Shown one piece after another: positions 5,800 to 9,005 of a stretch of 20,214 nucleotides of DNA (its first letter is position 1; every line of letters begins with the position of its first letter). Position numbers and translations under genes: made by a program. The stretch comes from a virus. The DNA is taken from positions 1 to 20,214 of IMG/VR virus record IMGVR_UViG_3300042450_000459; one strand, 5' to 3'. The notes beneath the pieces are model-generated. The model did no database searches, was not told the origin of the DNA, and was given only the letters and a program-made list of their open reading frames with translations.

Positions 5800-5825
5800 C
5801 GCTCGGGGGCGTAAAAGTCCGAGTG
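5800..5825 (+). other. Hairpin 1 after the capsid gene
   Basis: CGCTCGG (5800-5806) can pair with CCGAGTG (5819-5825), giving a 7-bp stem with one G-U pair and a 12-nt loop. It begins 9 nt after the capsid stop codon. There is no T-run after it, so it does not look like an intrinsic terminator; it may protect or trim the 3' end of a capsid transcript. Confidence 0.5.
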
Positions 5826-5829
5826 CTGC

Positions 5830-5852
5830 GGGGGGTCTTGACTGCACCCCCC
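5830..5852 (+). other. Hairpin 2 after the capsid gene
   Basis: GGGGGGT (5830-5836) pairs perfectly with ACCCCCC (5846-5852) around a 9-nt loop. It stands 4 nt after hairpin 1 and 9 nt before the next start codon. The stem is very stable and lacks a T-tract, so it could act as an mRNA stabiliser, a partial attenuator, or a brake on translation of the next gene. Confidence 0.55.
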
Positions 5853-5861
5853 ACGGGCCAA

Positions 5862-6047
5862 ATGTTAGTAAAATTTTTGATCAATCCAACAGGGCAATTT
5901 AACCTAAGTTATAACTTGGGGGAGGTTGTAGAAATTGAAACTAAGCAAGCCGAGTTATTACTTGAGGCGGGGGCTGTTGAAGTTGTAGCTGCACCAAAGA
6001 CCAAAAAGAAACCGACAAATCCAGAGACCGAATTAGACGCCGAATAA
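5862..6047 (+). CDS. Small hypothetical protein after capsid
   Basis: A 61-aa protein of unknown function. It opens with VKFLINPTGQFNLSYNLGEVVEI, a pattern of short beta strands, then a helix (TKQAELLLEAGAVEVV) and a Lys/Pro/Glu-rich tail. Small proteins of this shape often follow capsid genes in HK97-type clusters and are usually called head or connector-associated, but no function is assured. I chose the ATG at 5862; an in-frame GTG at 5823 would add 13 residues encoded by the hairpin region, which is unlikely. Its stop overlaps the next start as TAATG. The two hairpins upstream may lower its expression compared with the capsid. Confidence 0.7.
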   Translation: MLVKFLINPTGQFNLSYNLGEVVEIETKQAELLLEAGAVEVVAAPKTKKKPTNPETELDAE

Positions 6048-7474: not shown

Positions 7475-7912
7475 ATGGCAACTACTGGACCAGTAAACGG
7501 CACGCTCATAAGCATCTATAAAGATGTGAGCGGCACACTTAAAAAAATCGCTAACGCGACATCTAACTCGCTCGACATTTCTAAGGATATGATCGACGTT
7601 ACAAGCAAAGACAGCGCAGGCGCAAAGGAATTTATTGCCGGCGAGTATGGCTATACTTTGAACGTTGAAGCAATCTTTGAAGATGACTCAAGCGTAGGAG
7701 CTTCACAAGTTTCGTACAAGGATTTGGTAACAGATTTGCTTGCAGGTACTTTATTGACTATCGTAATGACATCAAACGTAACGGGCGACGAAAAATATAG
7801 TGGATCTGCTTTCTTTTCTAGCTTAAGCTTGAGCGCACCAAACAACGACAAAGCAACTTGGACAGGCACCTTGCAGGGATCTGGAGCTTTGACTTTGGGT
7901 ACTGTTGCTTAA
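7475..7912 (+). CDS. Major tail tube protein
   Basis: Probable tube subunit of the non-contractile tail, 145 aa, resembling the TP901-1-type/TTP family. The N-terminus (NGTLISIYKDVSGTLKKIANATSNSLDISKDMIDVTSKDS) shows the hallmark pattern of these proteins, in which a tag of beta strands is followed by the D-x-x-x-V-T-S-K-D-S turn. GEYGYTLNVEAIFEDDS and the strand pair YSGSAFFSSLSLSAPNN / ATWTGTLQGSGALT complete the beta barrel. Codon use has some of the capsid's bias, which fits an abundant structural protein. It is followed by an 18-nt gap holding a promoter-like box. Confidence 0.87.
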   Translation: MATTGPVNGTLISIYKDVSGTLKKIANATSNSLDISKDMIDVTSKDSAGAKEFIAGEYGYTLNVEAIFEDDSSVGASQVSYKDLVTDLLAGTLLTIVMTSNVTGDEKYSGSAFFSSLSLSAPNNDKATWTGTLQGSGALTLGTVA

Positions 7913-7930: not shown

Positions 7931-8263
7931 ATGAGCACTACAATTAAACTAGGGGGTGCTGAGCATCCCCTTTTATTTAACATGAATAGCCTGCGCAACA
8001 TTATGGAAGTTGCCGGCATGGAAACCTTTGCAGATTTAAACTTGCAAAAGGACTTAGCGAAGTCTATGGACTTTGCTTTAAGCTGCGCGTTTTACGGGAT
8101 TTTGGAAGGCTACGAGGCCCAGGATAAAAAGACGCCTTATCCAACCGTGCAAAAGTTAGGCGCGGCAATTAAAAAGTTTCAAGAAATTAGCCCCGCGTTA
8201 GAAGGATTCACGGCAGCAATTACAGAATTTTTTGCACCTGTTGAAGAGTCAACGGGGGAGTAA
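7931..8263 (+). CDS. Tail assembly chaperone, G part
   Basis: Probable tail assembly chaperone, 110 aa, which coats the tape measure protein during tail assembly and is not part of the virion. It opens with a beta strand (TIKLGGAEHPLLFNMNSLRNIMEVAG), typical of siphovirus G-type chaperones, and continues with helices (LAKSMDFALSCAFYGILEGYE, VQKLGAAIKKFQEISPALEG) and an acidic end (PVEESTGE). It lies between the tube and tape-measure genes, the conserved place for the G/GT pair. Its last codons contain a G-run followed by a stop and a stem-loop, and the -1 frame is open beyond, so a longer G-T fusion is expected (see the frameshift element). Confidence 0.8.
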   Translation: MSTTIKLGGAEHPLLFNMNSLRNIMEVAGMETFADLNLQKDLAKSMDFALSCAFYGILEGYEAQDKKTPYPTVQKLGAAIKKFQEISPALEGFTAAITEFFAPVEESTGE

Positions 8264-8297
8264 CTGCCAAGGGCGACAGCGCCCCGCTAACTTGGCG
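8254..8297 (+). promoter_or_regulatory. Probable -1 programmed frameshift signal (slip site plus stem)
   Basis: The end of the chaperone reads ACG GGG GAG TAA (8252-8263). A peptidyl-tRNA on GGG (8255-8257) can slip back one base and still pair with GGG (8254-8256). The -1 frame is open from 8245 to 8604. Starting 4 nt after the stop is a structure: outer stem TGCCAA (8265-8270) with TTGGCG (8292-8297), which closes with a U-G pair, and inner hairpin GGGCG (8271-8275) with CGCCC (8280-8284), loop ACAG. Spacing of 5-8 nt between slip site and stem is the usual one for -1 frameshifting. The predicted fusion is 224 aa (109 + 115). Confidence 0.6.
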
Positions 8298-8325
8298 CAA
8301 GATTGAGCGCATTGCTTATGGCGAA

Positions 8326-8604
8326 ATGATGCTAAGTGAAAGGGAGTTTCTACTTTCAACGCCTCGCTTTTGGCGTTTAAAATTGGAAGGGATGCGCGAA
8401 GCTCAGCAGCAGCAGTATCGCAACCAATGGGAAATAACGCGCTGGGCTGTTGCTACGGGCATGGCCCCGCACTTAAAGAAACCCATAGAACCCAAACGTC
8501 TGTTAACATTTCCTTGGGAGGTATCCGATTACTTATCTATTCACGACGCTTTAAAGTTATATTCGCATGTCTTTGATAAGTTAACCCCAGACGCGAAAGC
8601 ATGA
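8326..8604 (+). CDS. Tail assembly chaperone, T part (read mainly as G-T frameshift fusion)
   Basis: Probable C-terminal domain of the tail chaperone GT product. From the ATG at 8326 it is 92 aa, but the family-like sequence begins upstream in the same frame: APLTWRKIERIAYGEM (8281-8328) precedes MLSEREFLLSTPRFWRLKLEG, which resembles the W..I..A......EF..LTPREFW.L..G pattern of T-type chaperone domains. Later come QQQQYRNQWEITRWAVATGM and FPWEVSD. This supports reading by -1 frameshift from the upstream gene rather than independent initiation, although the ATG ATG pair at 8326-8331 could also start translation. The stop overlaps the next start (ATGA). Confidence 0.78.
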   Translation: MMLSEREFLLSTPRFWRLKLEGMREAQQQQYRNQWEITRWAVATGMAPHLKKPIEPKRLLTFPWEVSDYLSIHDALKLYSHVFDKLTPDAKA

Positions 8605-9005
8605 GCGCAAATAAAATAGTTTATAACATCCTAAGTACTAACGCGGCGCTCACTGCGCTAATATCTACGCGCCTAAATCCTGTTAGGATACCACAGGAAA
8701 GCGCGTTTCCTGCTGTGAGTTATAACTTAATTAGCCAAGTTCCTAACCCTACAAAATCAGGGCACAGTCGCACAGAGTTTGCACGCGTTCAAGTTAATGC
8801 TTATGGCACAAGTTTGAGCAGCGCGCAGGCAGTTGCTTCAGCAATTCGCACAGCGTTTGAGGCGGTAACATTGCCCGGAACTTTTAACGGGATCAAATGC
8901 CAAACACTGGAATACGACGGCGAGAATCAAACCGCCGACGATACAGCCGCCTTTGCAGGTTTATACCAAATTTCTCAGGACTATTTAATTAACTTTACTA
9001 GGTAA
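8601..9005 (+). CDS. Tail terminator/completion protein (DUF3168-like)
   Basis: Probable tail terminator that stops tube growth and joins tail to neck. The 134-aa protein matches the DUF3168/gp17-like pattern: helix IVYNILSTNAALTALISTRLNP, then VRIPQESAFPAVSYNLIS (the usual P......PaIvY..is), HSRTEFARVQVNAYGTSLSSAQ (R..vqVd.w..s...a..la..v) and a final strand pair around LYQISQDYLINF. In most phages of this type this gene stands before the tube gene; here it lies between the chaperone and the tape measure, which is unusual. ATG overlaps the previous stop, and its TAATG end overlaps the tape measure start. Confidence 0.75.
   Translation: MSANKIVYNILSTNAALTALISTRLNPVRIPQESAFPAVSYNLISQVPNPTKSGHSRTEFARVQVNAYGTSLSSAQAVASAIRTAFEAVTLPGTFNGIKCQTLEYDGENQTADDTAAFAGLYQISQDYLINFTR

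Follow-up and report, generated by a model that had tools for sequence, protein, structure and literature searches.

Gene content and layout of the probable tail chaperone locus

The window analysed here is the whole of the IMG/VR virus record IMGVR_UViG_3300042450_000459, a stretch of 20,214 nt from an uncultured virus. Its genes follow the order terminase, capsid, connector, tail tube, G, T, tail terminator-like and putative tape measure (Table 1). The terminase has its best match in Marinobacter phage AS1, at 39% identity, and no named phage is close. Searches recovered neither tRNA genes in the window nor Rfam families within 8100-8500. We infer that the source is an uncultured siphovirus-like phage and that G functions as its tail assembly chaperone, while the relatives described below hint at a group infecting Bacteroidota.

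As in phages with the lambda G/GT type of organization, G is a short gene that follows the one for the tail tube and precedes the (putative) tape measure gene. Its product weakly matches PHROG 2115, labelled 'tail protein' (E 3.3e-4), and the G protein of one distant relative matches PHROG 183, labelled 'tail chaperone protein'. The predicted structures are of low to middling quality, with pLDDT values of 66.7 for G and 72.8 for T, and a comparison of the G model at that pLDDT with the PDB returned no match to a solved structure. The -1 frame downstream of G matches PHROG 16333, a family whose function is not known (E 6.4e-9), and the match begins at residue 23 of the open frame, so that family-like sequence indeed precedes the first ATG, as the initial annotation had noted. 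Among 50,697 phage records we found one relative of T and none of G, and 84,980 species genomes held no relative of the window's T.

Table 1. Positions of the genes and candidate recoding signals at the G-T locus
Feature	Position	Strand	Evidence or remark
Tail tube gene	7475-7912		Pfam Phage_tail_2, PHROG 1407; directly upstream of G
Gene G, zero-frame tail assembly chaperone (putative), 110 aa	7931-8263	+	ORF, PHROG 2115 match, gene place
TGA in the -1 frame, upstream limit of the shift	8242-8244	+	With TAA confines the shift to 8245-8263
Predicted slip site G GGG GAG (sister clade G GGA AAG)	8254-8260	+	157 distinct junctions
T part, -1 frame, 114 aa after the predicted slip (fusion 224 aa)	8260-8604	+	Third-position substitutions, PHROG 16333
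Zero-frame stop TAA, directly 3' of the heptamer	8261-8263	+	0 changes in 115 protein-selected junctions
Putative stimulatory stem-loop	8266-8296	+	RNAalifold, pairing in relatives, synonymous suppression
Speculative pseudoknot, loop GCGC with downstream GCGC	8279-8282 with 8307-8310	+	Invariance
ATG that gene callers would choose as the start of T	8326-8328	+	Not conserved
Tail terminator-like gene	8601-9005		PHROG 347, Pfam Tail_completion_gp17; between T and putative tape measure
Putative tape measure gene, 602 aa	9005-10813		Size and place; weak matches to unnamed families

The G-T junction in close relatives

Reading of the ORFs and frames confirmed that the 3' end of G is ACG GGG GAG TAA and that the -1 frame lies open from 8245 to 8604, both as initially annotated. 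To place this junction among its relatives, we collected a first set of 80 loci by searching with the G protein. Every locus in this set that reaches the junction reads NNG GGG GAG TAA; the codon before GGG varies (ACG, GCG, GAG, GTG, CAG, AAG), and its third base, at 8254, is always G. T lies in the -1 frame in all of these loci except L050. In the latter, about 8 nt inserted into the stem region just after the G stop create GCTGACTCTTCAGC, the reverse complement of the 3' end of G just upstream, and break the T frame; the insertion looks like either a snap-back artefact or a mutation.

A further search with a more distant G (L076) recovered a sister clade, here termed clade B as opposed to the window's own clade A, in which G is about 75% identical, the junction reads GAG GGA AAG TAA and T is again in the -1 frame. 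The sister heptamer GGGAAAG thus occupies the homologous place in the same phase as GGGGGAG, directly before TAA. A DNA scan in which the heptamer was left free yielded 157 distinct junctions, of which 70 carry GGGGGAG (the window's clade) and 87 GGGAAAG (the sister clade), with no third kind; in both clades, all junctions have TAA immediately 3' of the heptamer. One could suppose that a sequencing or assembly error has split a single gene here, given that the window is a metagenome contig and that L050 has an insertion breaking the T frame; however, the same split recurs in all 157 distinct junctions, which come from many assemblies, and these relatives refute that idea, leaving it a practically negligible likelihood.

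GGGGGAG does not conform to the classical X XXY YYZ pattern, whereas GGGAAAG does. Nevertheless, in 157 of 157 distinct junctions the overlap holds a conserved site at which the tRNAs in both the P and A sites could re-pair after a slip, in the case of GGGGGAG via one G-U pair. The bare heptamer is no evidence by itself, since the window contains a second in-frame GGGGGAG at 5918-5924, within the 5823-6047 ORF and 120 nt before its stop. What lies beyond chance for GGGGGAG at the end of G is its conservation, its phase, its place at the stop and its tie to the open -1 frame. The extent of that frame bounds where a shift could happen: it opens at 8245 in 57 of the 58 clade-A junctions, whereas two clade-B junctions have it open only from 8254, where the heptamer begins, and in these two the shift would be confined to 8254-8263.

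Substitution patterns across the junction

We counted changes by parsimony on a tree of 115 distinct junctions picked by the G protein alone. An alignment selected by DNA pattern had been dropped for the test of the stem and the TAA, because the pattern itself had fixed those bases, and the test was therefore redone with the protein-selected set. The G-frame third positions 8245, 8248 and 8251 change 17, 9 and 9 times, respectively, and 8254 not at all; constraint begins exactly at the heptamer and extends over the TAA and the stem-loop. Only two changes fall within 8254-8263, both of them switches between the two heptamers, which is conservation beyond the needs of G. Over the stem region (8264-8298), 12 T-frame third positions show 12 changes in total, where other stretches with the same number of third positions show medians of 109 (T) and 135 (G) and never fewer than 35 and 75, respectively. 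Similarly, the four-fold sites in 8260-8311 show 0, 0, 5, 0, 0 and 0 changes, versus a median near 9 downstream.

These data bear directly on whether T is instead a separate gene, begun at ATG 8326 (the first start codon of the open -1 frame) by internal initiation or termination-reinitiation, with the overlap being incidental. An ATG does stand at this codon in 58 of 58 clade-A junctions, and some Microbacterium phages are reported to have a pair of chaperone ORFs that shows no apparent frameshift (PMC7302621). Yet in clade B the codon is TTG in 34 junctions, TTA in 17, CTC in 4 and ATG in just 2, and the first ATG comes at 8392 in 55 of 57. Moreover, the 27 bases between the stem and ATG 8326 (8299-8325) contain no in-frame ATG, GTG or TTG and change 2, 1 and 38 times at the first, second and third T-frame codon positions; the near-restriction of changes to -1-frame third positions indicates that this segment is translated in the -1 frame without a start codon of its own. 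The conservation of the heptamer in excess of what G requires also speaks against a separate T, which we regard as very improbable. The downstream -1 ORF, in sum, overlaps the end of G and has no conserved start, and its annotation should be mended accordingly: T is better given as part of a fusion than as a gene starting at 8326.

The initial annotation had proposed that -1 frameshifting joins G to T and had asked whether the G-run, the TAA and the stem are conserved and whether T has a conserved start. All three elements proved to be conserved (the stem in a revised form, see below), T has no such start, and the proposal is thereby strongly supported. With heptamer, stop and stem conserved, the -1 frame coding upstream of any start and the ATG lost in the sister phages, it is highly probable that a programmed -1 ribosomal frameshift in this tail assembly chaperone pair makes a 224-aa G-T fusion. 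Judged from sequence conservation alone, an uncultured group of phages present in many IMG/VR metagenome assemblies would use a G/GT frameshift.

A separate stretch near the 3' end of T, 8559-8574, also has third positions with few or no changes among the 115 relatives, which might reflect a signal belonging to the gene that follows at 8601.

The downstream stem-loop

A two-part stem at 8265-8297 had been described initially, and folding of 8261-8299 gives it as the structure of lowest energy (-14.3 kcal/mol). This energy is unremarkable (z -1.24, with 22 of 200 shuffles folding as well); since it is unconvincing by itself, we judged the stem by its conservation. The inner half of that fold (8271-8275 with 8280-8284) was rejected, with the pair 8272-8283 failing in 11 of 17 distinct relatives. 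The conserved fold instead pairs 8266-8275 with 8285-8288 and 8291-8296, leaving an AA bulge at 8289-8290 and a 9-nt loop at 8276-8284, and has an RNAalifold consensus energy of -12.7 kcal/mol. Across 17 distinct sequences its pairs are formed in 169 of 170 cells (99.4%); the variants comprise three further pair types, all one-sided and consistent, and there was no two-sided compensatory change among these 17. The conserved stem begins 5 nt past the heptamer. The stem as first drawn was placed 4 nt after the stop codon, which is a miscount: it starts 1 nt after TAA, and the gap of 4 nt counts from GAG.

The GCGC in the loop might speculatively pair with the GCGC downstream to form a pseudoknot: all four pairs are invariant in the 115 sequences, and the third positions in 8304-8310 are unchanged. 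As both arms are invariant and there is no covariation, this pairing stays a mere suggestion.

Proposed mechanism of the frameshift

We propose the following model for the window's junction. Most ribosomes would read GGG GAG and stop at TAA to yield the 110-aa G chaperone, and a minority would slip back by one base on G GGG GAG. In the P site, tRNA-Gly would re-pair from GGG to GGG, and in the A site tRNA-Glu could move from GAG to GGA through a G-C pair, a mid-codon G-U pair and, given the anticodon UUC, an A-U pair. Reading would then resume at GTA in the -1 frame to give 110 + 114 = 224 aa. The stem-loop 5 nt downstream, and perhaps also the stop codon entering the ribosome, would raise the rate of slippage. 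The occurrence and efficiency of the slippage, the tandem mechanism and the stimulatory role of the stem and the stop are what we infer from the pattern of conservation. A point against the frameshift reading is that re-pairing on GGGGGAG depends on G-U in the middle of the A-site codon.

Two details of the initial annotation need adjustment in light of this model. It correctly set GGGGGAG apart from strict X XXY YYZ heptamers, but its description of a poor A-site match overlooked the possible tandem re-pairing of GAG on GGA. It likewise gave the right length for the fusion, 224 aa, but expected the junction peptide EESTGGVTAK, whereas tandem slippage predicts EESTGEVTAK; a chain reading ESTGGVTAK rather than ESTGEVTAK would need a slip before GAG is decoded. 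Peptides spanning the fusion would cover the G-T junction sequence FQEISPALEGFTAAITEFFAPVEESTGEVTAK.

A variant compatible with the main reading is a stop-assisted slip of a single tRNA, in which TAA would occupy the A site while the tRNA-Glu in the P site moves from GAG to GGA. The adjacency of TAA to the heptamer in all junctions of both clades would fit this variant, as would the importance of a nearby stop at one plant virus shift site (PMC5009743) and the site of phage KL1, in which TGA directly follows GGGAAAC (PMC3483164). Conversely, the fact that the heptamer always begins with G, together with its two re-pairing codons, fits tandem slippage, and in the distant relatives considered below the stop is often several codons away. 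The two routes give the same product, so the sequence does not discriminate between them; we consider the stop-assisted slip rather unlikely and retain tandem slippage in the model.

Comparison with known frameshift systems

Fusing two overlapping tail-assembly genes through frameshifting is familiar from tailed phages. In the lambda G/GT type, both G and G-T are made, with a low proportion of the fusion; G binds the tape measure and T binds the tail tube protein. The window's locus resembles it in its place after the tail tube gene, in having a short G with a fused T at the overlap end and in the -1 direction of the shift. GGGAAAG, the heptamer of the sister clade, is lambda's own G/GT slip heptamer. 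It differs from lambda in the heptamer GGGGGAG, in the stop directly after the heptamer and in the presence of one gene (8601-9005) that separates T from the putative tape measure gene. An intervening gene in this position is also seen in HK97, SPP1 and KL1 (PMC3483164). The G/GT frameshift and the high shift-proneness of G_GGA_AAG in E. coli are both described in PMC5009743, and phage TP901-1 likewise has GGGAAAG (PMC4493119), identical to the heptamer of the sister clade. GGGGGAG and GGGAAAG, which occupy homologous positions and share both stem and stop, constitute a natural pair for studying the effect of the A-site codon on slip efficiency.

The closest parallel to the window's own heptamer is GGGGGAA, the 'fivetwo' motif of about a thousand annotated SEA-PHAGES frameshift genes, nearly all of them tail chaperones, for which slippage has been argued through re-pairing of GAR on GGA via G-U (PMC10885494, PRFect). 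The corynephage phi16 similarly has a proposed GGGGGAA site with a proposed downstream RNA structure (PMC5506516). The window shares with these actinobacteriophage sites a run of five Gs followed by a glutamate codon; unlike them, it uses GAG rather than GAA, and its relatives suggest a group infecting Bacteroidota; the likeness drawn here is one of slip site. In layout, the locus recalls gp18/gp19 of the Burkholderia phage KL1 (PMC3483164), with a heptamer (there GGGAAAC) directly before the zero-frame stop, a downstream stem-loop (predicted in KL1) and the intervening gene. Among the matches listed in the open-access literature, none presented GGGGGAG as a slip site that had been tested, and the exact string combined with frameshifting gave unrelated papers. 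Taken together, the evidence supports well a tail-chaperone frameshift of the ordinary lambda type, whose heptamer is one of the less common ones.

Distant relatives with A9 junctions

The PHROG 16333 family extends to a distant set of loci (L162-L328; e.g., L187:2735-3345) from Prevotella/Bacteroidales genomes and viral contigs. Their T proteins are homologous to that of the window, at about 20-25% identity, and here too T lies in -1 relative to a short gene upstream of it. When the close G set was compared with the distant one, profile against profile, the result fell short of significance (probability 9.7%), so the link to these loci is based on T (PHROG 16333) and on gene place. Unlike the junctions described above, the overlap in these loci holds exactly nine As in all 25 distinct junctions (19 clusters at 80% G identity), and the run starts at codon position 2, 1 or 3 in 13, 6 and 6 of them, respectively. 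The 84,408 bases of these loci contain 25 A/T runs of nine, equal to the number of junctions, and none longer. The zero-frame stop stands at a varying distance from the run.

In many bacteria, selection against runs prone to slippage can be seen once these reach a length of nine (PMC1088944). The run length being fixed and the codon phase not, these A9 junctions suggest that the fusion is reached by transcriptional slippage, although each run also contains a ribosomal A_AAA_AAA site. This raises the question of whether RNA polymerase rather than the ribosome might change the frame in the window as well, by slipping on its G run. The exact A9 at the same junction in relatives, in all three codon phases, and the significance of that length in bacteria are the points in its favour. 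However, the window's junction has five Gs only, not the run of some nine or more As or Ts that marks a transcriptional slippage site, the sister GGGAAAG has no run longer than three, and both heptamers keep their codon phase and the downstream stem; polymerase slippage in the window is hence extremely unlikely, and ribosomal frameshifting remains the preferred reading there.

It is conceivable, though we would not favour it as the likelier outcome, that a single chaperone family employs two machineries, namely ribosomal slippage in the window's group and RNA polymerase slippage in its A9-bearing Bacteroidales relatives. If true, the family would resemble dnaX, for which E. coli relies on frameshifting and Thermus on slippage (PMC1088944). 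The A9 relatives make such a switch between ribosomal and transcriptional recoding within one chaperone family testable. Two further loci, L191 and L322, have an A8 run with T in the +1 frame, as expected from the loss of one A; this could be either a sequencing loss or a real length variant.
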